Shown: piece by piece, positions 18,392-38,352 of the stretch
Numbering within the stretch: position 1 is the stretch's first letter
Layout of the letters: every line of letters begins with the position of its first letter
Source of the DNA: Devosia sp. A16
Lineage (GTDB): Bacteria; Pseudomonadota; Alphaproteobacteria; Rhizobiales; Devosiaceae
DNA: 64,000 bases
NCBI RefSeq assembly: GCF_001402915.1
Contig: NZ_CP012945.1
Coordinates: 4,193,501-4,257,500 of the forward strand
Direction of reading: 5' to 3'
Translations under genes and position numbers: made by a program
Notes under the pieces: generated by a model
Told to the model about the DNA's origin: nothing
What the model saw: only the letters and a program-made list of their open reading frames with translations
The model's database searches: none

Positions 18392-18426
18392 AAAAGCGCC
18401 GCCCGCCTCTTATTGGCAGGCGGCGC
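18392..18426 (-). terminator. Intrinsic terminator of the alginate-like operon
   Basis: On the minus strand a 12-bp stem (GCGCCGCCTGCC against GGCGGGCGGCGC, with one G-T wobble) and a 7-base loop are followed by TTTTC. It lies 20-54 bases past the algL stop and marks the 3' end of the 16-kb operon. Confidence 0.85.
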
Positions 18427-18445
18427 CGTCATTCGGGCCGAAGGG

Positions 18446-19495
18446 TTAACTAGTTGATGCCGGCAAACGGGCAACCCAATCGCCCAGCCGCGTCAGGTTC
18501 CCGCCGAGCTTGGCATGCGCCAGTGGACGCAACGGTTGGACGAACGCGTTGGTGGCGGGGTCGGGAGCGTGCCGCAACAGCGGCTCGACCCAGGCCAGCA
18601 TGAACGGCTCGAGCGCCTGCTTGCCGGTCTGGAACGTCTGTTCCTTGCCGTTGATCTGCTGGACGATGGATGGGTCCTGGATGGCCCTGAGGCTGAACGC
18701 GGCAATCGTGCCGAGCTTGCCATCGCAGGCGGCGTAGCCGTCGTAGCCGGTGGCCTTGAGCAGATCGGCGGTGACGATCAGCGGGGCGGTGGCATGGAGC
18801 TGGTAGTTCAGCGCCTTGTCGGCCCGGTTCATTTCGAGCGGCAGGCTGCCGTCGGGCGAGGCCTGGCAGGTGACGAGCTCGAAGCTGCCCCTGGCCCAAT
18901 CCAGCATCGCGGCATCGCCATTGAGGCGACCGATGGCGGCGGCAGCCAGCCCGGCCCAGGCGCGCAGGTTTGCCCGCTTGGCGTTCCTGGGCGCTTCGGT
19001 CTCGAAGAACTGCTCCATCGCGTTGGCCGCGCCGGTGAGCCAGGCAATGACGCGTTCGCGCTTGGCCGGATCGAGCGAGCCGGCTGTCTCGGCCTGCAGC
19101 AATGCGATGGCCAGCCCGGCGTAGCGCGCCGGGATCGCCAGCTTGACGTTCAGCGTCTCGAGTTCAGTGAGCGCCCCGGCTGCAGCCCACTGATCGAGCC
19201 AGTCGAGAACGCATTCGCCACGCGCGGCGTCGCCGTCCATCAGCGCGGTGTTGGCCATCTTCATCAGTTCGCCGATGAACGCCTCCACCGGACGCAGAGC
19301 GCGATCGACCTCGGCATTGGACACCTCGTCGATGTCCGAACGCGTCTTGCTGTCGTCGGTGTAGCGGCTGCCGAAATTGAGCGCGACAACCGGGGCAGGC
19401 GAGGGTGGGCAGGCAAACGGCTTATCCTCCGCGCGCGGCATCGCCGTGCCGAGCAGCAGCGTCATCGTTGTGATCAGGCCGAGTGCCATTCGCAT
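18446..19495 (-). CDS. algL: AlgL-like alginate lyase family protein, catalytic residues substituted
   Basis: This 349-residue periplasmic protein (signal about 1-22) is co-linear with Pseudomonas AlgL. It shares CVLDWLDQWAAAGAL (with NWMSAWARAGAL in AlgL), a MLDWARGSFE-type helix, DGSLPLEMNRADKALNY and a C-terminal HAKLGG segment. AlgL degrades misplaced polymer in the periplasm and supports the export complex. Aligned from memory, the lyase motif NNHSYW falls on residues 172-177 (AKRANL), and the catalytic Arg and Tyr of RALAYHNYA fall on K227 and H234. The protein is therefore probably not a normal lyase and may be structural. GGAG lies 7 bases before the ATG, and the start sits one base after the preceding stop. 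Last gene of the operon. Confidence 0.75.
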   Translation of the reverse strand: MRMALGLITTMTLLLGTAMPRAEDKPFACPPSPAPVVALNFGSRYTDDSKTRSDIDEVSNAEVDRALRPVEAFIGELMKMANTALMDGDAARGECVLDWLDQWAAAGALTELETLNVKLAIPARYAGLAIALLQAETAGSLDPAKRERVIAWLTGAANAMEQFFETEAPRNAKRANLRAWAGLAAAAIGRLNGDAAMLDWARGSFELVTCQASPDGSLPLEMNRADKALNYQLHATAPLIVTADLLKATGYDGYAACDGKLGTIAAFSLRAIQDPSIVQQINGKEQTFQTGKQALEPFMLAWVEPLLRHAPDPATNAFVQPLRPLAHAKLGGNLTRLGDWVARLPASTS

Positions 19496-19496
19496 C

Positions 19497-22226
19497 TCAG
19501 TTCTCCACTGCCATCGACGCCAGCAGGCGCTGCGCTTCGGGATTGCCGAGGCCGGCTGCATCCTTCAGCAGCATCGTCGCCTGCTGGATCGACGGTTCGA
19601 TGCCGATGCCCATGGCATAGGCCTTGGCGAGTTCGACCATGGCAACGGCGTCGCCACCCTCCGCGGCCCGCTTCAGCCATGAGCTGGCGTCGCGTGCCTC
19701 TGCGGCCGTGGTGCCGGTCGAACGCAGGTAGAGCGCCAGCTCGCGCATCGCCACGGCGTCGCCCGACGCCGCCGCCGCGGCGTAGCGCGCCGACCAGTCG
19801 ACCTGCTCCAGTACCGCCGTCATGATCGCCGGCGGGGCCTTCAGCACCTTGTCGCGGATCTTGCCGAGGTCAGCGACCGGCGCGTCGTCGATCATTCGCT
19901 TGAACATCGCGACCGCCTTGGTCGGAGCGTAATCTTCGCTGTTGGGATCGGCGTAGATCTTCACCAGCCGGCTGACCGCGGTGTCGTCCCCGAGCGCCAC
20001 GGCCTGGTCGAACAGCTCGATCGCCGTCTTGGTCCGTTCCTTGCCGCCCATGGCCATGTAGCGGTCGGCGATCGCCGTATGGCGCCAGCCATCATCGCCG
20101 GCGAGCCGCAGGCTGACCTCCAGCCAGTGCTCGGTTTCCGCGTCGTCGGCCGTAGCGACGAAGGCGCCGGCCAACTTGATGGTATTCTCGAAAGTGCAGT
20201 CGACGACGCTCGCGGCGCGATAGAGGTAGTCGTGCCGCAACTCCTCGTCCCGGGTTTTCGAGGCGGCGAAGATCAGCGCATCGGCGTCGCCGCGTTGCTC
20301 GATCGTCTGGTGATATTGCGCCAGCAGGTCGGTGTCGGAGATCCCCTGGGCCTGGAGGATCGGCAAGAGGCGCAGGATGGCCTCACCCGAGCCCTGCTGT
20401 GCGGCCTCGGTGAGGTAGCCGATCGCTTCCGACCGCTTCTCGGCGTCGCTGGGGAAATAGTCGAGCAGCACCGAACCCAAGTCGACCGCGGCGCGCGGCA
20501 GGCCATCTTCGCGCGCCCGTTTCAGCGCCGCGATGGTCTCCTCGATCACCTCGGGCGTCGGGGTCACGGTGAGCCGATGCCGCGCCAGCGCATCGACCGT
20601 CGCCGGCACCGGATCGATGCGCGACTGCCAGAACGCCAGCATTTCCGGGCTGGCGCCGTTGCGGCCCAGATAGTCGACATAGTAGGCGACGGAGTTGGGA
20701 CGGCCATAGAGTGCGTGGGTCTGCAGCTTGGCCAGCGCGATCGGATCGGCGTTGGGGTCGAGCGCGCTGATATCGTCGGTATCCATGAACTCGGTGGAGT
20801 TGCCGGCCGCGTCCTCGGTGCGCTGCCAGAACGCGGCAAGCCGCATGTCGGCGCCCTTGGGAGCTCGGCAGAGATAGGCCTGCCTCAGGTCGGTCATCGG
20901 GTCGATCTTGCCGGCATTGGTCACGGCGAAACTGAGCAGCTCGGTGGCGCGTTCGAACACGCCCGGCTCATCACGATGGCGCAAGAGGATGAAGGCCAGC
21001 TCCTGGGCCGAATCCGCATCCTCCAGCGCCACGCCCTTTTCGAGCAGCGCCTTGGCCTCGGCCTCGCCGGACCAGCGCCCTTTGTCGCTCAACACCAGCT
21101 TGGCCAGCTTCGAGAAGGCCCAGCCTGGCGGTTGCGGCATGTTGACCAGTTCGGTCAGGCGCGCCGCATAGGCGGCCTTCTTGTCGGGAACCGCCTGTTC
21201 CTTCTCGAGCAGCGTGACGAGCCGGAACAAGGCATTACGGCTGCCCAGCTCCGAGGCTTCGGCGTAGAGCGCCTCGGCTCGATCCCCATCCTCGGGCACC
21301 AGCGCGCCGGCTTCGTAGAGCTTGCCCAGCTCGACCTGCGCCGCCGCTACCCCACGGTCGGAGGCGAGGTTCAGGTATTTCAGCAAGCTGTCGTTGTTCT
21401 TGACGATCAGCTCGCTTTCGAGGTGCAGCTGCGCCACTTTCCATGCCGCCCCGGCATCGCCGAGATCGGCGGCCAGCCGCAGCCATTGCTCGGCGATGTC
21501 GTGGTCCTGCTGCACCACCAGGCCCTTGGAGTATTCGCGCGCGATGCGGCCGATGCGGTCGCAGATATCGGGATCGAGTTTGCCGACCAGCGCACCGAAC
21601 GCCATCGTCACGGCAAGCTTGGGGTCGAGCTCCCAACCGGGCACCTGTTCGCCGCCGATGTTCATGGAGGCGAGGCGGAGCAACGCGTCGGCATTGCCGC
21701 CCATGGCGGCGCGGGTCAGGTACCCGAGGCCCTTCTGCTTGTCCTTTTTCACCACCAGCCCGTCGAGATAGAGCGTCGACAGCAGGTTGAGCGCCTTGGG
21801 CGCAAGGGCGCCGGAATTCGCCTCCAACTGGTCGATGATGCCGGTCTCGCGCAGTTGCGGCAACCGGCCGGCCTTGAGGTAGAGATTGATCCGATCGATC
21901 GAAATGTCCGGCACCTTGGGCGCCGGCATCTTGCCGACAACCGCCAGCATCTTGTCGACCAGCTTGAAATTGCCGGTCGGGTTGAGGTCGCGCAGACGTC
22001 GCGCGTCGCGCAGCACCAGCTCGGGGTCCCCCTCGGGCACCGACACTTCGTCCCACGCCTGCCAGCGCGCCACCACGTCGGGGTCGGCCTTCTTGGCGAC
22101 GCAGACCTCCTGGGCCGGAATCTCCGGCGGCAGGAAAGTGACCTCGACCGGCGCGGCAACGGCGGCGGATACGAGGCCCGAACCGAGCAGCAGCAGGGTG
22201 GCGAGGCGGGGGACGAATGACGGCAT
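19497..22226 (-). CDS. Large secreted Sel1-repeat protein of the alginate-like operon
   Basis: This 909-residue protein has a signal peptide (cleavage near SAAVAA, about residue 24). Many Sel1/TPR-like helical pairs follow, such as GLGYLTRAAMGGNADALLRLA, EQWLRLAADLGDAGAAWKVAQL, AIGYLTEAAQQGSGEAILRL and SWLKRAAEGGDAVAMVELAKAYA. It occupies the operon role of AlgK, the TPR/Sel1 scaffold linking Alg44, AlgX and the porin in Pseudomonas, but is about twice its length. It shows no lipobox cysteine, whereas AlgK is a lipoprotein. A strong GGAGG site precedes the ATG. Function as an export scaffold is inferred from repeats and position. Confidence 0.75.
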   Translation of the reverse strand: MPSFVPRLATLLLLGSGLVSAAVAAPVEVTFLPPEIPAQEVCVAKKADPDVVARWQAWDEVSVPEGDPELVLRDARRLRDLNPTGNFKLVDKMLAVVGKMPAPKVPDISIDRINLYLKAGRLPQLRETGIIDQLEANSGALAPKALNLLSTLYLDGLVVKKDKQKGLGYLTRAAMGGNADALLRLASMNIGGEQVPGWELDPKLAVTMAFGALVGKLDPDICDRIGRIAREYSKGLVVQQDHDIAEQWLRLAADLGDAGAAWKVAQLHLESELIVKNNDSLLKYLNLASDRGVAAAQVELGKLYEAGALVPEDGDRAEALYAEASELGSRNALFRLVTLLEKEQAVPDKKAAYAARLTELVNMPQPPGWAFSKLAKLVLSDKGRWSGEAEAKALLEKGVALEDADSAQELAFILLRHRDEPGVFERATELLSFAVTNAGKIDPMTDLRQAYLCRAPKGADMRLAAFWQRTEDAAGNSTEFMDTDDISALDPNADPIALAKLQTHALYGRPNSVAYYVDYLGRNGASPEMLAFWQSRIDPVPATVDALARHRLTVTPTPEVIEETIAALKRAREDGLPRAAVDLGSVLLDYFPSDAEKRSEAIGYLTEAAQQGSGEAILRLLPILQAQGISDTDLLAQYHQTIEQRGDADALIFAASKTRDEELRHDYLYRAASVVDCTFENTIKLAGAFVATADDAETEHWLEVSLRLAGDDGWRHTAIADRYMAMGGKERTKTAIELFDQAVALGDDTAVSRLVKIYADPNSEDYAPTKAVAMFKRMIDDAPVADLGKIRDKVLKAPPAIMTAVLEQVDWSARYAAAAASGDAVAMRELALYLRSTGTTAAEARDASSWLKRAAEGGDAVAMVELAKAYAMGIGIEPSIQQATMLLKDAAGLGNPEAQRLLASMAVEN

Positions 22227-22268
22227 CGGGAGCCTCCGATTGAGACAGTTGCGGCGCGCGCGAGAACG

Positions 22269-22910
22269 CTATTGCGCGCGGAAGAACGCGTTTTCGACGG
22301 CAGTGGCGGTATAGGTACCGTTCGAGCCGGTGAAGACGATCGACACGCCACCGCGACGCTTGAGGTCCAGCGCGGCAACGGTGGCGACCGGCTTGCCCTC
22401 CGCCTGCACCTCGAAATCGAGGGTCAGCGGCGCCTTCAGCGCCACCGATTTGCCGGTGTCGCCGGCAATCGCTTCGATGGCCTTGGCCTTGGCGGCGGGG
22501 ACGAACAGGTCGACGCTCGCGAGGTCGGAGAGGTTGTAGAAATAGACCGTTGCCTTGCTGGGGTCCGAGGCCGGGTCGTCCTGCAGCACCAGCGGTTCGC
22601 CTTCGACGCTCCAGGCATAGGTGTAATAGGCGCCGGGCGAGGTCGTCACCGACCCGGAGACGTCCCCCGCCGAAACAGCGATGTCGCCCGGCTGCACGTT
22701 GACATAGGCAGAGAGGCCATCGGTGATGTTGTCGACGGTCGTTCCGTTGACCACCGCCACCGCGGCGCCGGGCACCAGCACCCGCACGAAGGCGGAGTTC
22801 GGATCGACCGGCGCGTCGTAGAGGCCATCATCCTGGGCCAGTGCGGCCGGGGCGGCGCTGAGCAGCATCAGGCTGGCGAGGGCGACGAGTTTGGGGGTTG
22901 AGCGCAGCAT
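22269..22910 (-). CDS. algF: AlgF-like periplasmic O-acetylation protein
   Basis: This 213-residue protein has a signal peptide (about 1-28, ending AALAQ). It then reads DDGLYDAPVDPNSAFVRVLV and continues as two beta-rich domains, matching AlgF in length, position after algX and the conserved LYDAP/NSAFVRV start. AlgF helps pass acetyl groups to the nascent polymer in the periplasm together with AlgI, AlgJ and AlgX. The ATG at 22910 has GGAGA upstream; an earlier in-frame ATG lies only 21 bases away but lacks a site. Confidence 0.8.
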   Translation of the reverse strand: MLRSTPKLVALASLMLLSAAPAALAQDDGLYDAPVDPNSAFVRVLVPGAAVAVVNGTTVDNITDGLSAYVNVQPGDIAVSAGDVSGSVTTSPGAYYTYAWSVEGEPLVLQDDPASDPSKATVYFYNLSDLASVDLFVPAAKAKAIEAIAGDTGKSVALKAPLTLDFEVQAEGKPVATVAALDLKRRGGVSIVFTGSNGTYTATAVENAFFRAQ

Positions 22911-22930
22911 GTCGGCTCTCCTTGTTGGCA

Positions 22931-24256
22931 TCAGGTGTTGCAGAGGGAAATCGCCGCCTTCTCCGCGGAAAGGCGATCGAACTGGATCGAAACCTTCGAG
23001 AGCTCCAAGCTGTCGAGGGACTCGAGCGGGATGAAGAAGCGCCCGGTGCCGCGGAAACGGTCGCCGCGGTGCACCTCGCGCGTGAAGGTGCGCCCGTCGG
23101 TGCTCTCGAAGTTGAGCACCACGTCGCGGCTGCCATTGTCGCCGGCATCCGCCAGCAGCACCTGGTTCGCCGCGATCGGCGTACCGGTGAGGTCAGCCTG
23201 GTAGAGGCCCTTGGCCTTGTCGATCACCGGGGCGTTGCCGACCGGCTGGCAGTCGTTGCGGGCAGCAGCGATCAGCTCGGTGAGCGAACCGGTGCCGAAC
23301 TGCGCCAGGTTGTTGTAGATCGGGTTTTCCCACACGAGGAATTTCGGGCGGTCGGCTTGGAACTCGCGTGAGGTGAGATAGGACGTGATGGCGCCGAACT
23401 GGTTGCCGCCGGTGATCGCCATATTGGCCACCGGCAGGCTGGCATACTGGGCGAGAAAGCCCGAGAAGTTCGGCACCGATGCGTCCGAGAAGCTGGTGCC
23501 CACCAACGCGATCTCGTCGCTGGTGGCGCCTTCCGCCTCACCGCCGCTATTGCCGAAGATGTCGAGGCTGGCGTCGGCGCTGGCGACCTCGACTGTCTCG
23601 TAGGAGGTGCTGATCACCGGCGGCAGGCTAAGCACGCAATAGGCCTGCAGCGTGCGGCGCATGCCCGACACGGCGAGCTCGCTACCTGTCGGCTTGGTCT
23701 CGTAGTTGACCGGCGTAACGTCGGCATAGGCGGGGAGCTGCTTGATCATGCCGCCGATGGTCCGCGCCGCAGTTTCCGCGCCGCGCGATGTCCAGTGGAA
23801 GTCGGAGCGGAAGAACGGGGGGTCGTCGCCATTGGTGGTGCGCAGCGCCGACAACAGGTCGACGGCGATCACTCCTTGGGCGTTGAGGCGCTTGACCTGG
23901 TCCTCGTAGACCGCGACCGCCACGTTCTCGTCGAAACCGAACAGCTTGGCCTCGTCGGGCAGAAACGTCGGCAGCGTCACGCTCTTGGTGGGGATCGGCA
24001 CATAGAGCATCGTGGTGCCGTGCGCCTTCAGGGCCTCGGCCAGCTTGCCCATCTGGGCCACCGTATCCTCGGTGAACGGGTGCTGCATACGCAGGTCCGC
24101 GAAGATCCGATAGAAGAAGCCGTCACGGCCCTCGACCGAGGGAAGCGTCGGATTATCCTCGAGGTGCTTGCAGCCGAAGGCCGAGTTGGCAGCCAGCGCC
24201 GGGCTGGCGGAGAGCACGGCGGCAAGGGCCGCGCCAAGCAGCAGGGTCTTGTTCAT
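22931..24256 (-). CDS. algX: AlgX-like polymer O-acetyltransferase (SGNH-like plus C-terminal CBM)
   Basis: This 441-residue periplasmic protein has a signal peptide (cleavage about residue 23). Its SGNH-like domain keeps the catalytic Asp-His pair (D152, H154 in SDFHWTSRGAE) and the Ser block GTSFS (253-257). The NMAITGGNQFGAI segment follows. The C-terminal beta-rich part (about 340-440, RFRGTGRFFIPLESLDSLEL) corresponds to the carbohydrate-binding module of AlgX. It transfers acetyl groups to the polymer and bridges the trans-envelope complex. The start overlaps the preceding sel1 gene (ATGA). Confidence 0.88.
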   Translation of the reverse strand: MNKTLLLGAALAAVLSASPALAANSAFGCKHLEDNPTLPSVEGRDGFFYRIFADLRMQHPFTEDTVAQMGKLAEALKAHGTTMLYVPIPTKSVTLPTFLPDEAKLFGFDENVAVAVYEDQVKRLNAQGVIAVDLLSALRTTNGDDPPFFRSDFHWTSRGAETAARTIGGMIKQLPAYADVTPVNYETKPTGSELAVSGMRRTLQAYCVLSLPPVISTSYETVEVASADASLDIFGNSGGEAEGATSDEIALVGTSFSDASVPNFSGFLAQYASLPVANMAITGGNQFGAITSYLTSREFQADRPKFLVWENPIYNNLAQFGTGSLTELIAAARNDCQPVGNAPVIDKAKGLYQADLTGTPIAANQVLLADAGDNGSRDVVLNFESTDGRTFTREVHRGDRFRGTGRFFIPLESLDSLELSKVSIQFDRLSAEKAAISLCNT

Positions 24257-25062
24257 TCTGTCGTCTCCGTGGAGGCGGTGAGTTGTGGCGAGAGCGTGCG
24301 GAGCAGGTTCTCCGCCATGGTCCGGACGTTGAGCGTGTCGGACGCTGCCGCGAGCTTGAGGTAGCCCTTGGCCTCCTCGATCTGAGCCGGCTCCGGCGTG
24401 CCCGAGAGGAGCGCGAAGGCGAGGTCGAGCGCCGCCTTGGCGTCGCCCCCCTTGGCGGCGGCGACCAGCAGCTCGTCGGCGCGGGTCGGATCGAGCCCGA
24501 ACGGTTTGCCGGTCCGGTACATGGCAATCAGTCCGTCCCGGGCCACCGCGTCGCCGTCGCCCGCGAGCTTTTCAAGCAGGTCGCGCGACGCCGCGAGATT
24601 CTTCGGCTGATCGAGGAACACATCGGCGTTGAGCAGCCGGATCAACGGGCGGATCGCGGAGGTCCGGCCATTCTCGGCGGCGCGCCGATAGTAGCGGGCG
24701 GCCGCGTCGATGGTCTCAGGGTCGTGGTCGGCCTCGATGCGCTTGGCGAGGTTGAGTTGCGCCAGGTCGTCACCGGAGTCGGCCAGCGCCTGCAGCTCCC
24801 GATAGCTGACCTTCTTGCCGGCGATCATCCGGTTGCGGATCAGCTTCATCGGATCGACCGGCTTGGCCGCGCGATGCTTGACCTTGGCCTCTTTAGGCTT
24901 GCACTTGCCGGGCACCATCGGGCGGGCGCGCTCGGAGTCGCTCGACAGCGACTCCGGCACGCGCACCATGCACGTGGCGGCGTTGGCGGGGTTCACCACC
25001 GCCAGTCCGGTCGCCAGCGCCAAACTGGCGGCGGCAAGGGCGAGGATCAGCGGCCGGATCAT
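24253..25062 (-). CDS. Small secreted Sel1-repeat protein of the alginate-like operon
   Basis: This 269-residue protein has a signal peptide (about 1-33, MIRPLILALAAASLALATG...). A basic, lysine-rich linker follows (residues 55-75), then about four to five Sel1-like repeats such as AARYYRRAAENGRTSAIRPL, LLVAAAKGGDAKAALDLAFA and AKGYLKLAAAS. No lipobox is visible: the first mature cysteine lies in AATCMV, which does not fit. It overlaps both neighbours by ATGA (algJ upstream, algX downstream), so it is part of the acetylation/export block. It may share the AlgK scaffold role with the 909-residue protein. Confidence 0.75.
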   Translation of the reverse strand: MIRPLILALAAASLALATGLAVVNPANAATCMVRVPESLSSDSERARPMVPGKCKPKEAKVKHRAAKPVDPMKLIRNRMIAGKKVSYRELQALADSGDDLAQLNLAKRIEADHDPETIDAAARYYRRAAENGRTSAIRPLIRLLNADVFLDQPKNLAASRDLLEKLAGDGDAVARDGLIAMYRTGKPFGLDPTRADELLVAAAKGGDAKAALDLAFALLSGTPEPAQIEEAKGYLKLAAASDTLNVRTMAENLLRTLSPQLTASTETTE

Positions 25063-26162
25063 TGGCTCTCCTCCTTCGCCAACCCGGCCTTCCACAACTG
25101 GGTCTGGCCGAGGTAGCGCACCGGGAACTCCCAGATCACCACCTCCGGCGGGGTGTCGCGTAGCGTGGGGCTATCGAGGAAGGCGCGCATCGGCGCCACC
25201 GGCCCCTTGCCCTCTTCGGCGAGGTTGAGCACGTCCGAGCCCAGCGCCACCTTGAGGCTCTCGCCAAAACTCCACTGCGGGTTGGCGCTGTAGCTGGTGC
25301 CGGTGAGGACGAACGGAATGGAGGAGGGCCCGAAGATGTCGGCGCTCGAGGCCGCAGGGGGCGCAGACGCCTCGCGCGGCACGACAGTCTCCGGACCCAG
25401 ACCGACGAGCGGTGCCAGCCCGCCGGTGACGATGAATTTCGAGAGGTCGCCTTCGCGCTCGACCGGAGCGGCGTCGGCGATGGTATAGGGGGTGTCGCGC
25501 TTGCCCAGCGCCGAGCCCACCGCGTCCGCTACCACTTCGGCGCCGAGCGGCGTCCAGTGCGTATCGGTAGTGAGGAACAGCTGGCCCTTGTCCTTGGCTT
25601 CAAGCAGCGGCGCGCGCGTCTCGATGGACTTGATCCCGGCATTGTCGAGGACAGTGCGGAAATCCTCATAGAGGCGCTCGAGATCTGTCGGGATCGCGGC
25701 ATAGCTGACGTGCTCGCGGTAGATGTCGGCCTTGGCCGGCAACGGCACGACGACGAGCTCGATGCCCTTGGCGGCCAGCAGGTCGCGCACTTCCACGACG
25801 CCGGCCGCGGCCTCCGCCAGGTCCGGCGTCCGCTTCAGCGTTGCCTCGAACTCCTCCTTGGAAAACAGCCAGCCGTCATCGCCGACCACCACACCGGGTC
25901 GCCCTTCGCGGAACGCCAGGTAGCGGGCCGCCCCCATCGCATCGATCGAGGGGAGCCGGTGCGGCATGATCTTCTTGTAGTAGGTGTCGATCTGGATCGC
26001 GGCCTCGCCGTTCAGATACTCGGCCGCCGATTTCGGCATCTCGGCGATGTCGCGACCGAGGCCGGTGACGAACTCGTAATTGGCGACGACCGCATAGCCG
26101 AGGAACAGAACGGGCAGGGCGAAGGCCGGAGCGGCAGCGATGGTCAGGGGTTTCGCGGGCAT
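25059..26162 (-). CDS. algJ: AlgJ-like acetyltransferase
   Basis: This 367-residue protein has an N-terminal signal-anchor helix (about 8-30). Its SGNH-like AlgJ/AlgX domain shows DDGWLF near residue 95, the Asp-His pair D200/H202 in TTDTHWTPLGAE and the Ser block GTSYS (288-292). AlgJ hydrolyses or relays acetyl from AlgI at the periplasmic face for alginate O-acetylation. All three catalytic elements are present, so this branch looks active. It starts 9 bases after algI. Confidence 0.9.
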   Translation of the reverse strand: MPAKPLTIAAAPAFALPVLFLGYAVVANYEFVTGLGRDIAEMPKSAAEYLNGEAAIQIDTYYKKIMPHRLPSIDAMGAARYLAFREGRPGVVVGDDGWLFSKEEFEATLKRTPDLAEAAAGVVEVRDLLAAKGIELVVVPLPAKADIYREHVSYAAIPTDLERLYEDFRTVLDNAGIKSIETRAPLLEAKDKGQLFLTTDTHWTPLGAEVVADAVGSALGKRDTPYTIADAAPVEREGDLSKFIVTGGLAPLVGLGPETVVPREASAPPAASSADIFGPSSIPFVLTGTSYSANPQWSFGESLKVALGSDVLNLAEEGKGPVAPMRAFLDSPTLRDTPPEVVIWEFPVRYLGQTQLWKAGLAKEESQ

Positions 26163-26171
26163 GTTTCGGCC

Positions 26172-27602
26172 TCAGAACTGGAAGTAGAGGAAGGGCGAGT
26201 AGGTCTGCTCGGCGAGCCGCATCAGGCAGAAGATGGCGAGCGCGCTGAGGGCTCCGGCCTTGACCAGGCTGGTGGCGGCCGCCGTGGCCGTGCCGTCGGC
26301 ATTGACGGTGATCTGCGGTTCCCACAGGTGGCGCATCTTCGGCTCGGCGATGGTGATCGCAATCGCGATGGCAAGCATGGTCATCGCCTCGCGGCTGACC
26401 ATCCAGGCCACTTCCGGCCGAATGCCGATGCCGTTGAAGCCGAACATGCCGGCATACATCTGGAACGCCTGGCCGACATCGGGGGCGCGGAACATCACCC
26501 ACCCCAGCACCACGGCGACGAAGCAGAGCGGCAGGCTCCACCAGTAGTTCTGCGCCGTCTTGTCGTAGCCTGTCAGCCGTTCGACGACGAGAATGCCGCC
26601 GTGCCAGACACCCCACAGGATGAAGGTGAAGGCCGCGCCGTGCCACAGCCCGCCCAGCAGCATCACCAGGAACAGGTTGATATAGGTGCGGACCGTGCCC
26701 TTACGATTGCCGCCCAGCGAGATGTAGAGATAGGTGCGCAGCCACGTGCTGAGCGAAATATGCCAGCGCCGCCAGAACTCGGTGATCGAGCGGCTGACAT
26801 AGGGCATGTTGAAGTTCTCGGCGAAGCGGAAGCCGATCATCAGCGCCAGCCCGATCGCCATCGCCGAATAGCCGGCAAAATCGAAATAGAGCTGCATCGA
26901 ATAGGCGAGCGCGCCCAGCCAGGACTCCACCACGGTCGGGTTCGGCGCCGAGAACATGGCGTCGGCGAGGGGCGCCACCGGGTCGGCGATCAGCACCTTC
27001 ATCGACAGGCCGATCAGAAAGCGCTGCCAGCCGGCGTTGAACAGCTCCCAGCTGTGTTCGCGGTGCTCGAACTGCGGCGCCAGATCCTTGTAGCGCAGGA
27101 TCGGGCCGGCCACGAGTTGCGGGAACAGCGCGAGGAAGGCGGCGAAGTCGATGATGTTGCGCGAGACCTTGGCATCGCCGCGATAGACGTCGACCAGGTA
27201 GCTGATCGAGTGGAAGACGTAGAACGAGATACCGATCGGCAGGAGCAACTGCCAGTGGATGCCCAAGGCGTCCGGCGTGGTGCCCCACAGCATGGCGAAG
27301 CTGTCGATGAAGAAGTTGAGATACTTGAACACTCCGAGCACCAGCAGGTGTCCGGTGACGCCGATGGCGACGAAGAGCTTCGCGCGGGGGGTGCCCTGAT
27401 ACTTCTCGACCAGGATGGAAAAGACATAGGCCCAGAGCGTGTTGGCGCACAGCAGCATCAGGAAGTCGAAGCGCCACCAGCCGTAGAACAGGTAGGATTC
27501 GAGCAGCAGCGTCAGGTTCCGCCACTTCGGCGGCGTGAGGTAGTACGCGGCGAGAAAGATCGGCAGGAACAGAAACAGGAACGTCTCGGACGAAAAGACC
27601 AT
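26172..27602 (-). CDS. algI: AlgI-like membrane-bound O-acetyltransferase (MBOAT)
   Basis: This 476-residue polytopic membrane protein begins MVFSSETFLFLFLPIFLAAYYLTP, the usual AlgI start. It has PIGISFYVFHSISYLVDVYRG, the FWRRWHISLSTWLRTYLYISLGG block and the catalytic-histidine region GGLWHGAAFTFILWGVWHG near residues 315-333. It moves acetyl groups from a cytoplasmic donor across the inner membrane for polymer acetylation. Its ATG overlaps the algG stop by one base (TGATG). Confidence 0.94.
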   Translation of the reverse strand: MVFSSETFLFLFLPIFLAAYYLTPPKWRNLTLLLESYLFYGWWRFDFLMLLCANTLWAYVFSILVEKYQGTPRAKLFVAIGVTGHLLVLGVFKYLNFFIDSFAMLWGTTPDALGIHWQLLLPIGISFYVFHSISYLVDVYRGDAKVSRNIIDFAAFLALFPQLVAGPILRYKDLAPQFEHREHSWELFNAGWQRFLIGLSMKVLIADPVAPLADAMFSAPNPTVVESWLGALAYSMQLYFDFAGYSAMAIGLALMIGFRFAENFNMPYVSRSITEFWRRWHISLSTWLRTYLYISLGGNRKGTVRTYINLFLVMLLGGLWHGAAFTFILWGVWHGGILVVERLTGYDKTAQNYWWSLPLCFVAVVLGWVMFRAPDVGQAFQMYAGMFGFNGIGIRPEVAWMVSREAMTMLAIAIAITIAEPKMRHLWEPQITVNADGTATAAATSLVKAGALSALAIFCLMRLAEQTYSPFLYFQF

Positions 27603-29122
27603 CAGGCATCCCCTTCGAAGGTACAGCTGGTGGGGCGCAGGGCGCCGCTGGGTGTGAGCTTGGCGCCGGCCTTGAGCTGCAGGCCGTCGATGATCGTCGG
27701 CGTTGCGTCGGTGGCGCTGAGGTTGAAGAAGCGGTCGGTGAACTGCACCAGCTCGCCGTCGAGCAGCCGCGGCGCCTGGCCGGTGAAATCGTTCATGGCG
27801 AACTGCAGCCGCGCCGTGGTCGACCCCTTGATGCCCACGCGGTTGCCGTCGAGCTGGTTCGAGGCGATCTCGATCATCCCGTAGTCGGGCTGGTGCGTCA
27901 CGCTGATGCCGGCATTGCCGTTGTCGATCAGCCGATTGGCGCTGACCTTGAGGCCGGCGCTGTCGCGTACCGCAAGGCCCGACTGGGCGTTCTGCAGCAG
28001 CAGGTTGTCGGTCACCTCGATACAGTCCGCAGAGGCGACCGAGACACCCGAGCGCTTGCTGCCGGCAATGAGGTTGCCGTCGATCTCGAGTTGCGCGGCG
28101 CCGGCATCGGCGAAGATGCCGTTGAGTCCGGCGTTGAGGACGATGTTGCCACTAAGTTCGACCGAAGTGGCTCCCCCGGTGACCTTGATGCCATGGGCGG
28201 TTTGCCCGGCCAGCACGACATTGCCGCGCGCCGCAATGGCTTTGCCGCCGTTGAGCAGCAGCGCCGGGCCGCTCGAGGCTGCAAACACGTTGCCCTCCAC
28301 AGTGGCCGCATCGGCATCGACCAGCGCCAGCGAGCCGACACGCTCGAAGCGGCTGCCGCGCACCACCGAGGGGGCAGGCTTGGCGTAGAAGCCGCCTTCG
28401 AGGATGGTGACGCCGGTCAGCGGCGCGAACAGGCCATAGCCGAGATCGGCGAAGCGCATCCGCTCGAGCCGCGCGTTGCCGGAGAGGGCGACGACGACGA
28501 ACGGGTTGAAATCCTTGAGTCGGGGATTGGCCTCCCCGCTGCCGGCAATGGTCGCCCCGTCGCCGACCAGGTTACCTGAGGCGAGCAGGAAGGCGCCGCT
28601 GGAGCGGTCGAGCAGCAGCGTCTCACCCGGCTGCAACGCCAGCGTGGCGCCGCTCCACACCGCGATCGGGAGGTGCGCGACATAGCCGGCGTCGGTCTTG
28701 TCGATGATGCCGGTCAGCTTGGCGGCGGTCACCGCCTGGTAGAGCTGGGCGAGGCTCGCGACTCCGGCTTCGACCAGCAGCACTTCCGGCCTTGCCTGCG
28801 CCTGGCGCAGCGCCACGTGATAATTGGCGCCGGCTTGCAGCGCCAGCTGGCTCAGCACCAGGTCGATCGATACCAGGCTGACCTGAACCCCGCCCAGTTC
28901 GAGCGCCGCGGCCGGCTTTGGTTTGGCTGGCGCGTAGCTGAAACCGAGAGGAATTGCCGCCGCCTGGAGATCGGTAGTCGAGCGGCCGGCCTCGACCATC
29001 GCCGCGAGCGCGGCGACGGTCTTTTCGTAGGCGAGGGTCCGCGCGTAGTCGGCTCCCGTGGCGGCCCAAGGGAGAGAGCATGCCGCGGCGGCGAGACCTG
29101 CACGGACCCACGCCCTACGCAT
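27602..29122 (-). CDS. algG: AlgG-like right-handed beta-helix protein (epimerase motif missing)
   Basis: This 506-residue exported protein (signal about 1-23) is built from parallel beta-helix rungs over about 170-440. Examples are SGVSVASADCIEVTDNLLLQ, SGLAVRDSAGLKVSANRLID and AGISVTHQPDYGMIEIASNQ, which align with the rungs of Pseudomonas AlgG mannuronan C5-epimerase. The N-terminal domain reads like AlgG too. The catalytic motif DPHDRS, which sits in the rung starting YGI in AlgG, is replaced by KVTGGA (313-318 in HGIKVTGGA), so normal epimerisation is unlikely. It may still protect and guide polymer in the periplasm. It overlaps algA by 8 bases. Confidence 0.8.
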   Translation of the reverse strand: MRRAWVRAGLAAAACSLPWAATGADYARTLAYEKTVAALAAMVEAGRSTTDLQAAAIPLGFSYAPAKPKPAAALELGGVQVSLVSIDLVLSQLALQAGANYHVALRQAQARPEVLLVEAGVASLAQLYQAVTAAKLTGIIDKTDAGYVAHLPIAVWSGATLALQPGETLLLDRSSGAFLLASGNLVGDGATIAGSGEANPRLKDFNPFVVVALSGNARLERMRFADLGYGLFAPLTGVTILEGGFYAKPAPSVVRGSRFERVGSLALVDADAATVEGNVFAASSGPALLLNGGKAIAARGNVVLAGQTAHGIKVTGGATSVELSGNIVLNAGLNGIFADAGAAQLEIDGNLIAGSKRSGVSVASADCIEVTDNLLLQNAQSGLAVRDSAGLKVSANRLIDNGNAGISVTHQPDYGMIEIASNQLDGNRVGIKGSTTARLQFAMNDFTGQAPRLLDGELVQFTDRFFNLSATDATPTIIDGLQLKAGAKLTPSGALRPTSCTFEGDA

Positions 29123-30551
29123 GTTCGCGGCTCCCGTCGGCCACCGCTGCCAGTTCCAGCAACGGGGTGAGATGCGTCAGGGGGCCGTCCACATGGCAGG
29201 CGACCTCGATGACCTGCATCGGGCCTGTACCGTCATTGATGACCTCCGCCGTCTGCTCCGGACCGATCTCGAAGGTCGCACCGGCGCGGATCTCACGGCG
29301 GCGGCTCCCCATCTGCAGCGTGCCGCCGCCCGAGGCAACGACCATCAGCCGGCGGAATTCCGAACCGCTTTCCACCGGCAGCGTGGCGCCCGGATTGACG
29401 GTGAGATGGCGCAACGTATAGCCGGCGCCCGAGGCGAGCTTGCCCTGCTTGCCCCAGTCGGTGGCGCCGAACGAATGGTCATCGGCTTCGCGGCGGTTCT
29501 GCGCCTTGAGCTGTTCGACCACCTTCTTGACGTCCTGCGACTGCTCGCGGGTCGTCACCAGCAGGGCGTCATGCGTATCCACCACCACCAGGTTGTTGAC
29601 GCCGACCACTGCGACCAGGCGGTCGGAGCCGCGCACGTAGCTGCCGGTCGAGTTCACCATCATCACATCGCCGGTGACGACATTGTCGCCGTCCGACTTC
29701 TTGCCGATGGTGTGGAATGCCGCCCAGGCGCCCACATCGTCCCAGTCGACATCCGCCGGCGCCAGCGCCACTGTCTTGGATTTTTCGAACACCGCGCGCT
29801 CGGTGGGGAGGCTCTCGGCCGAGCCGAAGCTCGCCTCGTCGAGCACCAGGGCACCGTCCTCGTTGCCGGCGTCGGCAAGCGAAGCGCTCACCGCGCCGAA
29901 GGTCACCGGGTCGAAGCGACGATATTCCTCGATCACCGTATCGGCGCGCATCAGCGAGATGCCCGACGCCCAGTAGGCGAGGCCGGTCTCGATCAGCGAC
30001 TGCGCAGTCTGCGCATTGGGCTTTTCGATGAACTTCTCGGCCCGGTGCACGCCGCGATAGTTGGAGAACTCGCCGCCATCGATGATGTAGCCGTAGCCGG
30101 TTTCGTTGTAGCGCGGCTTGATGCCGAAGGTGACGATCAGCCCGTCGGCCGCCGCCTTGTGCGACTCCCGGATGCGGGCATTGAGATCGCCCTCGATGAC
30201 GTGGTCGGACGGGCAGATCAGCATCACCGCATCGGGGTCGGTGCGCGAGATCAGCAATGCCGCCGACAGCACCGCCGGCCCGGTATTGCGCGCCACCGGC
30301 TCGGCGATGATGCGCGCATTGCGCTGTACATCGCGAAGCTGGCGGCGAACCGTGCCCAGATGCCCACCGGCGACCGACACCACGGGGTCATGGAACAGCT
30401 CGCCTCGATGCCGCTGCACCGTGGTCTGGAAGAAGGTGATCGAGCCCTCGTGGTCAATGGGCTGGAACTGTTTGGGCTGCTGGCTGCGGGATAACGGCCA
30501 AAGCCGTGTGCCCACGCCGCCGCACAGTACGACTGGATGGATGGCGTTCAT
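29115..30551 (-). CDS. algA: Mannose-1-phosphate guanylyltransferase (AlgA/ManC type, degenerate isomerase domain)
   Basis: This 478-residue protein has the nucleotidyltransferase motifs CGGVGTRLWPLSR (10-22), CPSDHVI, the ETGYGYI segment, FIEKPN (174-179) and VDWDDVGAW (268-276). GDP-mannose synthesis should therefore be intact. The C-terminal cupin (about 375-460) normally carries the phosphomannose isomerase metal site in HHHRAEHW and IGQIHRLEN. Here these positions read SGSEFRRLM (395-403) and GPEQTAEVIN, with no histidines. Mannose-6-phosphate must then come from another isomerase. It starts one base after the alg44 stop. Confidence 0.9.
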   Translation of the reverse strand: MNAIHPVVLCGGVGTRLWPLSRSQQPKQFQPIDHEGSITFFQTTVQRHRGELFHDPVVSVAGGHLGTVRRQLRDVQRNARIIAEPVARNTGPAVLSAALLISRTDPDAVMLICPSDHVIEGDLNARIRESHKAAADGLIVTFGIKPRYNETGYGYIIDGGEFSNYRGVHRAEKFIEKPNAQTAQSLIETGLAYWASGISLMRADTVIEEYRRFDPVTFGAVSASLADAGNEDGALVLDEASFGSAESLPTERAVFEKSKTVALAPADVDWDDVGAWAAFHTIGKKSDGDNVVTGDVMMVNSTGSYVRGSDRLVAVVGVNNLVVVDTHDALLVTTREQSQDVKKVVEQLKAQNRREADDHSFGATDWGKQGKLASGAGYTLRHLTVNPGATLPVESGSEFRRLMVVASGGGTLQMGSRRREIRAGATFEIGPEQTAEVINDGTGPMQVIEVACHVDGPLTHLTPLLELAAVADGSREHA

Positions 30552-30552
30552 A

Positions 30553-31674
30553 TCAGTGGCCCTCGTTCGCCGGTCCGTTGAAGGAGAAGAACCGTCCCAC
30601 CGCCGCCAGCGGGTCGGATTTGATCAGCACGTCGACCGGCGAACCCACGGTGCTCTGGTCGAGCGCGATGGCCGGCACCAGGGTGACGGGGATCGCGGCG
30701 CCGTCGGTGGCGCTTCTGAGCAGCCCCGGCAGTTCCTTGGCGTCGAGAGATGCAGTGGTGACCGTGCCGCTCGGCATGTGCACCTCGGCATGAGCGCCCG
30801 AGGCGAGTGCCCTGAGCCCGCTGCCGTCGACCTTGGAGGAGATCACGACGGGAGCATCCTTGGGCGCCACGGTCATCACCGTATCGCCGGCCAGCACCGT
30901 GGCGCCGCTTTGCGCGGCGCCCGGCGCGACCACGCAGTCGCATGGCATCGACACGGCCAGCACCTCGCCCGAGGTGGTGCGGATGGCGAAGGCGATCTCT
31001 CCCTTGCTCGCTGCCGGGTTGACGAAATCGAGCTGGCCGGGGCTGATCGCCCTCAGATCCATGCCATCGAGCGTGATGGTGGAAAGGCCGGTGACCGGCA
31101 GCACGAACAGCCGCTCGTAGAGCTTCACGCCGACGAAGCCGACCAGCAGCAGTCCGAGCCCCGCAAAGGCGCCCCAGCGGATGCCGGTCATGAGGCCGCG
31201 CGATACTGAGCGCCCGGGCGCAGGCAGTTCGGAGCGAACCTTTTCGGGCTTGTCCGCCGTGCGGATCAGTCCGTCGACGCCGATCAGGTCCCCGCCGACA
31301 AAGGCATTGAGGATGTAGCGCAACTGCGGCAGGTGCGGGCCGGTCGGCTCGAGGAAGCGGAGCGTCACCGTGCCCGACTCCGGCGCCCCGGCGCCGATCG
31401 CTGCGTCCAGCGGCAGGCTGATGGCGTAGCCGGGGAAGTTGAACACCAGGGTGGCCAGTTGGACGCGACCATGCAGTTGCGGGTCGATCAGCCCGGTGGC
31501 TTCCGCCCCCACGATGCTGAGCGCATGCCCCTGCAACGAGCGGCCGTTGATGACCACGTTGAACGGCAGCCGGATCACCGGATGCTCGCCGTGTACGGTG
31601 GGCTCCGCTGCCAGCGGGGCCGAGGCGCTTCTGGCGGCTATGGGTTTGTCGAGTTCTGCATGCGCTTCGGTCAT
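30553..31674 (-). CDS. alg44: Alg44-like co-polymerase (PilZ domain, TM helix, HlyD-like domain)
   Basis: This 373-residue protein has an N-terminal PilZ-like domain (about 25-135, with LPQLRYILNAFVGGDLIGVDG resembling the Alg44 LRYLITSYLAGEVIGV stretch). A single transmembrane helix (about 168-188) and a periplasmic barrel-sandwich domain with the diagnostic CDCVVAPG follow. In Pseudomonas c-di-GMP binding by Alg44 switches on Alg8. Here the PilZ RxxxR is reduced to one arginine (HPVIR, 31-35) and the DxSxxG motif reads SIVGAE. The ATG at 31674 is preferred because GAGGG lies upstream; an ATG at 31698, overlapping alg8, is the alternative. Confidence 0.82.
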   Translation of the reverse strand: MTEAHAELDKPIAARSASAPLAAEPTVHGEHPVIRLPFNVVINGRSLQGHALSIVGAEATGLIDPQLHGRVQLATLVFNFPGYAISLPLDAAIGAGAPESGTVTLRFLEPTGPHLPQLRYILNAFVGGDLIGVDGLIRTADKPEKVRSELPAPGRSVSRGLMTGIRWGAFAGLGLLLVGFVGVKLYERLFVLPVTGLSTITLDGMDLRAISPGQLDFVNPAASKGEIAFAIRTTSGEVLAVSMPCDCVVAPGAAQSGATVLAGDTVMTVAPKDAPVVISSKVDGSGLRALASGAHAEVHMPSGTVTTASLDAKELPGLLRSATDGAAIPVTLVPAIALDQSTVGSPVDVLIKSDPLAAVGRFFSFNGPANEGH

Positions 31675-31687
31675 TGCTGGTGAGCCC

Positions 31688-33175
31688 TCAGTTGGCATGG
31701 ATGGGGAAGGGGCTGAGGAGCCCCGTCACGAAGATCACTCCGGCCACCAGCAGTCCCAGGGCGAGCGCGTGCATGTAGCTGGAGCTGATGGAGCGGACCC
31801 GTCCGCCGGCGCCGCCGCTGTTGCTGACGCTGGTCGCCGACTGGCGGGTCCAGCGCTGGCGGTCGAGGCGAAACATGACCGAGGTCTTGATCGCGGCACC
31901 GAACAGCTGGCCGAAATAGAGCAGGAACGGGTAGGTGATGGGGAACGGACCGCCGAAGCTGGCGAGCAGCCAGCAATAGGCATAGCGGGTCGCCATCACC
32001 CAGGCGATGTAGGCGACCGCGATCAGCGGATCGACGAACACCGAGAACAGCACGATGCCGACCGGCGCGGTGAGCGTCGTCCACATCGAGATTCGCTGGT
32101 CGAGGATCGACCACCAGGCGAACGGCCCGATCCGCGTCGGCGACAGCGCCAGGGCGCGGCCATTGGTGCGCAGCATATTGCCGAACCAGCGGCGCATCAG
32201 CGTGATGGCGCTCTCGACGAAGCCGGGCTTGGGCTGGGTCTCCATCGAGACGCAGGCAACGTCGGGCAGGTAGGCCATCTCGTAGCCGTGCTTGAGCAGC
32301 CAGAACCAGGTCGACTTGTCGTCGCCGGTGAGGAACTTCACCCGTCCCAGCCGCCAGTGGTCGATATAGTCCTCTTCCACCGAGGCGATGAATTCGGGAT
32401 TGGTGGCGAGGTCGGCGCGAAACACCGACATGCGGCCGGTAAGGGTCAGCACGCGCCCGCCCAGCGCCACCGCCGACATCATCATCTGGCGCTGCGTGAA
32501 GCGCAGCTTGAACCAGTCGCGGAACAGTGGGGCGTCGTCGATCTCGGCGCGCTCATGCGTGGTCAGCGCCCCGACCTTGCCGTTGGCGAAGAACGGAGCG
32601 GCGCGTTCGACGATGTCCTCGGGGATCTGCGTGTCGCCGTCGATCAGTAGCACGACATCGTCGGCGCTGGGGTAGCGCCGGGCAATGGAGCGCAGCGAGG
32701 TGGCGAGCGCATCGCGTTTGCCGGTGCCGTCGATGCGGTCGATCACCACTTCGACCGTGTTGGTTCCGGCCAGCACCTGCGCTGCGACGGCGCGGATCAG
32801 CCGCTCATCGGCGAGATCGACCACCGACGCGACGACGGTCGAGCCGCCAGGGGCGCGGCGGGCAGCCTGGAAGATCGAGCGATAGACCCGCGCAGTGATC
32901 GCCGCTTCGATCTTGTAGCTGGTGGCGAGAAAGAATGCGTGCGCCGGGCGACGCGTGGCGTAGAGCGCCTCGGCGGCGGCCCGCCGCCGAGGGTAGGCTA
33001 TGCGGATATAGACATGGGCGCGCACGAAGTTGACCAGCGCCCAGCTGTAGCGCCAGAGCCCGATCACCCCCAGCGTGAGGAACACCCCGGCTCCGCCGGA
33101 GAAGGCCGAGGCGGGCACGGTGCTGGCGATGGCCGCGGCAGACAGGATGTAGAGGGCGTGCGCGAAGGGGTTCAT
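31688..33175 (-). CDS. alg8: Alg8-like GT2 polymer synthase
   Basis: This 495-residue processive family-2 glycosyltransferase has two N-terminal transmembrane helices. Its cytoplasmic GT domain contains VLLIDGDTQIPED (DGD 179-181), LTGDDKSTWFW (catalytic TGDD 283-286) and the product-binding MRRWFGNMLRTNGRALAL (QxxRW equivalent, 327 on). Two or more C-terminal helices follow. This matches Alg8, the inner-membrane polymannuronate synthase that uses GDP-mannuronate. All catalytic motifs are intact. It begins 3 bases after algD. Confidence 0.93.
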   Translation of the reverse strand: MNPFAHALYILSAAAIASTVPASAFSGGAGVFLTLGVIGLWRYSWALVNFVRAHVYIRIAYPRRRAAAEALYATRRPAHAFFLATSYKIEAAITARVYRSIFQAARRAPGGSTVVASVVDLADERLIRAVAAQVLAGTNTVEVVIDRIDGTGKRDALATSLRSIARRYPSADDVVLLIDGDTQIPEDIVERAAPFFANGKVGALTTHERAEIDDAPLFRDWFKLRFTQRQMMMSAVALGGRVLTLTGRMSVFRADLATNPEFIASVEEDYIDHWRLGRVKFLTGDDKSTWFWLLKHGYEMAYLPDVACVSMETQPKPGFVESAITLMRRWFGNMLRTNGRALALSPTRIGPFAWWSILDQRISMWTTLTAPVGIVLFSVFVDPLIAVAYIAWVMATRYAYCWLLASFGGPFPITYPFLLYFGQLFGAAIKTSVMFRLDRQRWTRQSATSVSNSGGAGGRVRSISSSYMHALALGLLVAGVIFVTGLLSPFPIHAN

Positions 33176-33178
33176 GGC

Positions 33179-34498
33179 TTACCAGCAAATGCCTTCGTAG
33201 GTGCCGTTGGAGCGGAGCGAGGCATTGATGCGGGTCAGGTCGACCAGCGAGCGGTATTCGCTCACCGAGTTGAGCGGCGCGATGGTTTCCTCGTAGCGAT
33301 TGCCCACGAGGATCACGTCGGACGCGGCGATCAGGTCCTCGATCTTGCCGACGAGCCGCGAGGGCAGGTCGGGTACCACGTCGTTGCCGCGGCCCATGGC
33401 GCTCACGCCACCGGCGACCGCCTGCGAGACGTAGGGGTCGTAGACCCGCAGCTCGAGGCCCTTGGAGATCAGCCGGCTCGCGAGCTCGGCCAGCGGGCTC
33501 TCGCGCAGGTCGTCGGTGCCGGGCTTGAAGGCAATGCCGACCAGCCCGACGGTTTTGGCGCCGGAATTGGCCACCATCTTTTCGGCCCGGTCGATCTGCG
33601 CGGCATTGGCGACGAGCACCGAGTCGAGCAGGGGAGACGGAACACCCTTCTGGGCAGCGAGGTGCTGCAGGGCTCGGACGTCCTTGGGCAGGCAGGAACC
33701 GCCGAAGGCGAAGCCCGGCTTCATGAAATAGGGCGAGATGTTCACCTTGGTGTCGGCGCAGATGAGCTTCATCACCTGCTGGCCGTCGACGCCCGCCGCT
33801 TTGGCGATGTTGCCGATCTCGTTGGCAAAGGTCACCTTCACGGCGCGCCAGGAGTTCGAGGCATATTTGACCGCCTCGGCAGTCGTCAGCGTCACCACGT
33901 GTGAGGGCACCGGCATCTGGGCGTTGATGTCCTTGAGGATCGCCTCGGTACGCGGCTCCAGCGCGCCGAAGACGATGAGGCCCGGATCGTAATAGTCGGC
34001 GATCGCCGTGCTCTCGCGCAGGAACTCCGGATAGTAGCCGACGCCGAAATCCTGGCCGGCGACCATCCCGCTGGCCTCTTCCAGCACCGGGATGCAGGTC
34101 TCGTCCATGGTGCCCGGCACGATGGTCGAGCGGATGATCACCGAGTGGAAGCTCTGCTTGTGCCTGATCGCCTGGCCGATATCGGCGCAGACCCCCTTCA
34201 CGTATTTGAGCCCGACGGCGCCGGTGTCGTCGCTCGGGGTGCCGACGCAGACGAAGCTGGCATCGGTATCGAGCACCGCCTGCTGCCCGTCGGTGGTGGC
34301 GCGCAGCCGGCCCGAGGCCACGGCGCGGGCAATGATCTCGTCGAGCCCGTTCTCGACGATCGGCGACAAGCCGGAATTGACCGCGCTTACCTTGCCGGGG
34401 TCGAGATCGACCGCCACCACCTCGTGGCCGTCATCCGCCAGACACGCTGCGGAAACCACCCCGACATATCCGATCCCAAAGACGCTGATTTTCGCCAC
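33179..34498 (-). CDS. algD: GDP-mannose 6-dehydrogenase
   Basis: This 439-residue enzyme oxidises GDP-mannose to GDP-mannuronate. It has the NAD-binding ISVFGIGYVGVVSAACLADDGHEVVAVDLD start, the YYPEFLRE active-site segment and the catalytic cysteine C269 in GFAFGGSCLPKD. The length and Cys position match Pseudomonas AlgD (C268) rather than UDP-glucose dehydrogenases. The start is GTG at 34496-34498, with AGAGGG 6 bases upstream. As the first gene of the operon it sets the precursor and argues for a mannuronate-based polymer. Confidence 0.93.
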   Translation of the reverse strand: MAKISVFGIGYVGVVSAACLADDGHEVVAVDLDPGKVSAVNSGLSPIVENGLDEIIARAVASGRLRATTDGQQAVLDTDASFVCVGTPSDDTGAVGLKYVKGVCADIGQAIRHKQSFHSVIIRSTIVPGTMDETCIPVLEEASGMVAGQDFGVGYYPEFLRESTAIADYYDPGLIVFGALEPRTEAILKDINAQMPVPSHVVTLTTAEAVKYASNSWRAVKVTFANEIGNIAKAAGVDGQQVMKLICADTKVNISPYFMKPGFAFGGSCLPKDVRALQHLAAQKGVPSPLLDSVLVANAAQIDRAEKMVANSGAKTVGLVGIAFKPGTDDLRESPLAELASRLISKGLELRVYDPYVSQAVAGGVSAMGRGNDVVPDLPSRLVGKIEDLIAASDVILVGNRYEETIAPLNSVSEYRSLVDLTRINASLRSNGTYEGICW

Positions 34499-35723: not shown

Positions 35724-35728
35724 TCGGG

Positions 35729-37466: not shown

Positions 37467-37470
37467 CGTC

Positions 37471-38217: not shown

Positions 38218-38352
38218 GCGGCTCTCTATAGCCGGGCCCCCGAGGGCTGGCAATCAGAGCGGCTGGCGCGGAGGCGGCGGAATGGGCGGCGTGTCGAGGC
38301 AACGCTGGCGTAACGGCGAGGTCGGAACGGGGCTTGTGCTGGCGTGACGATG

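Follow-up and report, generated by a model that had tools for sequence, protein, structure and literature searches.

The closest described systems are the alginate operons of Pseudomonas and Azotobacter, in which the genes run algD-8-44-K-E-G-X-L-I-J-F-A. According to the available text of a 2015 review, known alginate producers require AlgK, AlgX and AlgG for an intact polymer; mutants lacking AlgG make oligomers instead of alginate, and strains with a mutated AlgG yield mannuronan in the laboratory. The same text names the histidine of the DPHD motif as the probable proton acceptor in AlgG, and states that no mannuronan-producing organism had been identified in nature by then (PMC4444821). 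In the accessible parts of other reports, AlgK binds AlgX, and AlgG did not pull down AlgK in P. aeruginosa (PMC9734138); the residues RxxxR and DxSxxG matter in PilZ, and P. aeruginosa production stops when Alg44 loses c-di-GMP binding (PMC8461298). The P. aeruginosa AlgL mutant H202A has no activity in vitro yet shows wild-type behaviour in cells, while R249 and Y256 mutants fail (PMC8829089, available part). Atypical alginate operons that lack genes for outer-membrane transport, or part of the modification set, have also been described, in the portion available, by Bundalovic-Torma et al. 2020 (PMC7112194).

We analysed a 64,000-nucleotide stretch of the genome of Devosia sp. A16 (the window), in which a preliminary description had placed twelve co-directional alginate-type genes closed by a terminator. 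All twelve are present in the order it gave: algD, alg8, alg44, algA, algG, algI, algJ, an algK-like gene, algX, algF, a 909-residue Sel1 gene and algL. They run on the minus strand from 34498 to 18446 with intergenic gaps of -65 to +42 bases (Table 1), and none of the 12 carries an internal stop or frameshift. The families matched are a GDP-mannose-type dehydrogenase, a GT2 synthase, the GMP half and, weakly, the PMI half of AlgA, a beta-helix AlgG, an MBOAT AlgI, two AlgX/AlgJ-type SGNH proteins, Sel1, AlgF, Sel1 and a PL5 alginate lyase. With its listed start the algK-like gene shares 37 bases with algJ, and translation may therefore begin further downstream. Downstream of algL lies a strong terminator-like hairpin with a U4 tail (-38.7 kcal/mol, z -5.45; none of 200 shuffled sequences reached so low an energy), in keeping with the terminator described before; a consensus terminator scanner requiring five T in eight did not list it, the tail having four.

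Table 1. Features of the operon, in window coordinates.
Feature	Position	Strand	Basis
algD, GDP-mannose 6-dehydrogenase	33179..34498	-	445.6 bits to 1mfz
alg8, GT2 polymer synthase	31688..33175	-	GT2 Pfam and conserved segments
alg44, co-polymerase, predicted PilZ fold without RxxxR and DxSxxG	30553..31698	-	alignment and predicted fold
algA, mannose-1-phosphate guanylyltransferase, isomerase half degenerate	29115..30551	-	profile matches, alignment
algG, beta-helix protein without epimerase D-x-H-D	27602..29122	-	alignment and predicted fold
algI, MBOAT O-acyltransferase	26172..27602	-	profile match, site check
algJ, SGNH acetyltransferase, retains DTHW and GTS	25059..26162	-	profile match, translation
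algK-like Sel1 protein, GTG start as listed	24253..25095	-	weak NCBIfam AlgK, profile position
algX, SGNH acetyltransferase, retains DFHW and GTS	22931..24256	-	profile match, site check
algF, acetylation adaptor	22269..22931	-	PF11182 above its cut-off
Sel1-repeat protein, 909 residues, likely signal peptide (judged by eye)	19497..22226	-	profile match, translation
algL, PL5 lyase-like, Leu199 in place of catalytic His	18446..19561	-	profile match, alignment
terminator-like hairpin, four U	18392..18427	-	folding energy against shuffles

A scan with an Alg8 alignment found at least 573 relatives, and we retained the 80 best named loci. Among these 80, the closest Alg8 matches come from Devosia sp. 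66-14 (97%) and Devosia sp. Root413D1 (96%), consistent with a Devosia-like genome, and the aligned DNA at the locus is 87-89% identical to both except for a 2.6-kb upstream stretch. A PMT_2-type glycosyltransferase lies in this stretch (window 35720-38330), which is present in Devosia sp. 66-14 but has no counterpart at the loci of Root413D1 and D. insulae. In the metagenome assembly of Devosia sp. 66-14 (L015/L127) algI falls in two reading frames, a likely sequencing error.

The precursor, synthase and acetylation enzymes look intact, in agreement with the preliminary description. AlgD matches the P. aeruginosa GDP-mannose dehydrogenase 1mfz far ahead of the next best match, a UDP-glucose dehydrogenase (445.6 versus 246.4 bits). 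In Alg8 the segments DGD, GDDKS-W and RW-GNMLR, to which we assign catalytic roles by assumption, are invariant in five aligned rows, and the protein appears to be an intact synthase; a sequence search of the PDB with it gave no match. AlgI, AlgJ, AlgX and AlgF are all present, with conserved sites in the first three, those of AlgI being the ones that we take to be its active residues. AlgA matches in its pyrophosphorylase (GMP) half, and its alignment lacks the histidines that we presume to form the isomerase site. The same genome encodes, away from the operon, a second GMP-PMI whose isomerase motif is intact (G000:C1:3993549-3993881), and a search there for a type I phosphomannose isomerase found none (PF01238 and PF20511, 0/1 each). 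The pyrophosphorylase half of AlgA together with AlgD would fit a supply of GDP-mannuronate, and the isomerase step may be covered by the second GMP-PMI gene.

The remaining proteins have lost residues. Alignment shows that AlgG lacks the epimerase D-x-H-D; its predicted structure (pLDDT 90.5) has AlgG 4nk6 as best match (E 1.8e-15, TM 0.73 by target length), and on this model the AlgG fold is kept. Likewise, the aligned Alg44 lacks both RxxxR and DxSxxG. It had no Pfam match, and a sequence search of the PDB returned only doubtful ABC-transporter matches; its structural model (pLDDT 86.9) resembles the PilZ domain of P. aeruginosa Alg44 (4xrn/4rt0/4rt1, TM up to 0.81 by target length), so that the PilZ fold is retained as modelled. 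AlgL belongs to the PL5 family and has Leu199 in place of the catalytic His. Asn198, Trp202, Arg246 and Tyr253 stay, so the earlier statement that the lyase motif was lost holds for the histidine and is too strong for the site as a whole.

These changes are not peculiar to the strain. We distinguish three operon types by labels made in this analysis: type A, that of the window, with algI, J, X and F all present (30 clade loci among the best 80 of at least 573); type B, without algI, J and F, in Rhodobacterales and two Martelella loci; and type C, with an intact AlgG that often has a long front part. Types A and B share all four changes (AlgG, Alg44, AlgA, AlgL) across Hyphomicrobiales and Rhodobacterales, and the gene order is common to loci of the two orders. 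In an Alg8 tree of 105 rows, the 54 clade rows form exactly one side of a branch of length 0.79 with support 100 (SH-aLRT), both trees of this study being quick searches with SH-aLRT support only. L119, at first labelled as lost on PilZ alone, made the label require two changes on the tree and was set aside; L069 and L047, Devosia insulae contig pieces that are clade members, were left out of the trees, and L069 was removed from the outside loci. Thus the description of the accessory enzymes as rewired stands for the four sites and fails as a strain trait, and the proposed collection of similar Hyphomicrobiales clusters yielded joint losses in a single Alg8 branch that also spans Rhodobacterales. 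One ancestral change followed by retention would be the simplest reading. Alg8 was found in 9 of 19 genus-sample genomes, the strain's own included, and in 24 of 398 genomes of a phylum-wide sample. One of the nine (G008, L129) has an operon of the type with intact AlgG and not of the stripped type. Stripped and intact operons occur together in Rhizobiales AFS098815, R. tibeticum and Rhizobium sp. Root274, and types B and A in Rhodobacteraceae CCMM004 (all among L041/L074, L046/L053, G063 and G501).

Among the best 80 named loci of at least 573, the division at this branch is sharp for three of the four sites. D-x-H-D of AlgG is lost in 48/48 tested clade loci and retained in 26/26 testable loci outside, and the c-di-GMP residues of Alg44 are lost in 54/54 and kept in 25/25. 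The AlgA isomerase site is lost in 46/46 tested clade loci, while outside it is retained in 12 of 19 testable loci and missing in 7. The lyase histidine is lost in 47/47 clade AlgL sequences (17 found at clade loci, 30 through a genome search; some genomes enter twice, as does at least one gene, L046/L140) and kept in 21/21 testable outside loci under a loose rule, [NSTG][NGS]H, by which L077 (TGH) and L079 (SSH) score as kept. Five of the 30 genome-search matches are listed with an internal stop, and each has an open frame of 343-425 residues around the changed site. Six clade loci lie outside the AlgG count and eight outside the AlgA count; the outside set comprises 27 named loci, 26 of them scored on at least one site, with L087 giving none of the four. 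The canonical control L124 retains all four sites and L123 its three readable ones. An accident of alignment or assembly as the source of motif loss is ruled out by these intact controls and by the agreement of all 48 tested clade AlgG rows.

Within the clade, the altered sites differ in character. In all 46 aligned AlgL rows the catalytic His is replaced by Leu199, and Asn198, Arg200, Trp202, Arg246 and Tyr253 stand at 100%; because the replacement is itself invariant, it is not drift. In AlgG, the Tyr286, Asp289, His291 and Arg316 columns (lettered as in type C, numbered as in the window) do not vary in type C but scatter in the clade, and the conservation gap to the intact type C relatives is largest at residues 265-364 (0.28 versus 0.04-0.15 elsewhere). 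Single losses also occur elsewhere, and against uniqueness stand, besides the seven outside AlgA loci, L126, a gamma-type operon missing D-x-H-D with its other three sites kept, and L135 (same place as L119), a remote alphaproteobacterial locus without D-x-H-D and the PilZ motif and with NNH kept. The PilZ motif is retained in 20/20 gamma-type loci and missing in three remote alphaproteobacterial ones (L135, L101/L131 and L102/L132). The remote Alg8 clusters L130, L131 and L132 have algD and no algG that we found, and two of the three are without the PilZ motif. In type C loci including L068 (14110-17907), the D-x-H-D AlgG occupies the tail of a frame of 1,250 residues with a helical-repeat-like front; the one front tested gave a weak TPR match below cut-off and may be an AlgK-like part fused to AlgG.

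The type B loci bear on acetylation. AlgX keeps Asp-x-His in 31/31 and Ser in 30/30 readable type A loci (final counts without L126, once grouped with type A for AlgX), and both are kept in 0/16 type B loci. AlgX is without Asp-x-His and the Ser nucleophile in L038, L040 and the Rhodobacterales type B loci, wherever the operon lacks algI/J/F. On the Alg8 tree type B amounts to two changes, in 2 Martelella rows and 15 Rhodobacterales rows. AlgF and a strong AlgI match occur in two of the 16 type B genomes, and in one of these, G076, the AlgI match lies in a type A operon of that genome; in a third genome, G506, AlgI is matched weakly (28% identity). Since the catalytic residues of AlgX vanish with its partner enzymes while the protein stays, finding them intact in the window is good evidence for acetylation, and the polymer would be acetylated in the periplasm.

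Export differs from the described systems. The first Sel1 gene matched NCBIfam AlgK at E 1.4e-5, but with 23.9 bits against a cut-off of 700; its profile picks the gene at the AlgK position in the gamma-type operons L123, L124 and L126, although Sel1 repeats cross-match. It is probably AlgK-like, and so the export part is probably not wholly missing. AlgE, previously described as absent, indeed has no match in the strain's own genome (PF13372, 0/1), and the search revealed no export pore there; PF13372 scores 350 bits on the canonical AlgE, the gene between algK and algG of L123. Of 38 relatives of types A, B and C, 36 likewise have no AlgE match, and the remaining two have matches of 37-51 bits, above cut-off and away from the operon. 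The absence of AlgE is thus a trait of the alphaproteobacterial family and not of this clade. Export could proceed via the AlgK-like and large Sel1 proteins and an outer-membrane pore other than AlgE.

Several explanations must be weighed. Were the operon decaying, function would have been lost gene by gene and no polymer made. The number of vanished catalytic sites would fit, as would the AlgK-like gene, the fastest evolving (dN/dS 0.17-0.59 over three comparisons). However, dN/dS, estimated by a simple counting method, was 0.04-0.17 for 12/12 genes against L127, which is the Devosia sp. 66-14 locus. The range was 0.03-0.25 against L016 (11 genes) and 0.15-0.59 against L128 (12 genes), so that every comparison stayed below 0.6. 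These ratios indicate that the operon genes are under purifying selection. The uninterrupted frames of the 12 genes, the order shared by two taxonomic orders and an AlgL-type gene in 28/28 type A genomes argue likewise, and we reject decay on the dN/dS evidence as very improbable.

Two further explanations retain a working polymer pathway. Ordinary alginate would require that guluronate come from an unrecognised epimerase, of the AlgE type or an AlgG acting with other residues, and that AlgL work without its histidine. The wild-type-like cells of the P. aeruginosa H202A mutant speak for the latter (PMC8829089, available part), and a strong second, DPHD-bearing AlgG is found in 3 of 47 clade genomes; but an active-type AlgG profile recovered the operon gene alone from the strain's own genome, and the AlgG site has lost its Tyr, Asp, His and Arg columns jointly, so that we hold this explanation to be improbable. 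A different uronate polymer is unlikely too, though less so: Alg8 would use another sugar nucleotide or linkage, AlgG and AlgL would be reshaped to bind the product or slowly cut it, and the lost motifs would reflect a new substrate. Leu199, Arg200 and Trp202 of AlgL, invariant in all clade rows, look like a new constraint, and the branch of 0.79 leading to the clade is long. Nonetheless, AlgD and the GMP half of AlgA in the operon match GDP-mannose enzymes, and the catalytic face of AlgG has acquired no new conserved set in place of its scattered columns.

We therefore favour, with a probability of about 0.6, an alginate operon turned polymannuronate factory, which would make O-acetylated poly-beta-D-mannuronate without guluronate, with an Alg44 not switched by c-di-GMP and retired enzymes serving as scaffold. 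The mannuronate-based, O-acetylated, non-epimerised polymer of the preliminary description remains the best reading and is backed by the clade-wide sequence comparison, with three corrections, concerning the strain trait, the lyase and AlgK. In this factory, inactive AlgG may be kept as a polymer-guiding scaffold with the AlgK-like protein and AlgX; as AlgG and AlgK did not co-precipitate in P. aeruginosa, this role rests on the mutant phenotypes. Alg44 may be kept as a co-polymerase no longer needing c-di-GMP, and because P. aeruginosa needs c-di-GMP binding by Alg44, the clade would have to activate its synthase in another way. AlgL may persist either to bind the polymer or as a lyase of low activity, the latter being conceivable since H202A is inactive in vitro and wild-type in cells. 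At even odds, the whole alphaproteobacterial clade makes natural mannuronan, epimerisation, c-di-GMP gating of Alg44 and normal lysis having been lost on one branch with the enzymes kept as scaffold; two later lineages would have dropped acetylation, leaving AlgX non-catalytic, and export would proceed without AlgE. If so, named Devosia, Rhizobium and Rhodobacteraceae isolates are direct candidates for natural mannuronan producers. The clade would amount to a natural experiment that separates the components of a polysaccharide machine required for catalysis from those required only structurally: AlgG, AlgL and Alg44, and AlgX in two lineages, persist although the residues that normally serve catalysis or ligand binding are gone. 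Whether alginate-type synthases can run without c-di-GMP and without AlgE could be tested in it as well.

A full-text literature search, judged by titles and abstract beginnings among the matches listed and with most subscription papers out of scope, gave no account of the clade or of joint losses. The main text of Bundalovic-Torma et al. 2020 on atypical operons contains no mention of alphaproteobacteria or Rhizobiales (PMC7112194). By Alg8 the nearest relatives are the type C operons of Microvirga, Rhizobium mesoamericanum and Devosia psychrophila, which also lack algE in the genomes checked, bar one weak match. Unlike the window, however, they retain the AlgG D-x-H-D (26/26), the PilZ motif (25/25) and the lyase His (21/21) at testable named loci among the best 80 of at least 573, and their AlgG front is often long, and TPR-like in the one tested. 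With the Pseudomonas and Azotobacter operon the Devosia operon shares the gene set except algE, with a probable AlgK-like gene for algK, and likewise the folds, the precursor enzymes and the acetylation set. In contrast to it, the Devosia operon has another gene order, an extra 909-residue Sel1 gene and no algE, and is without intact AlgG, PilZ, AlgA-isomerase and AlgL-His sites.
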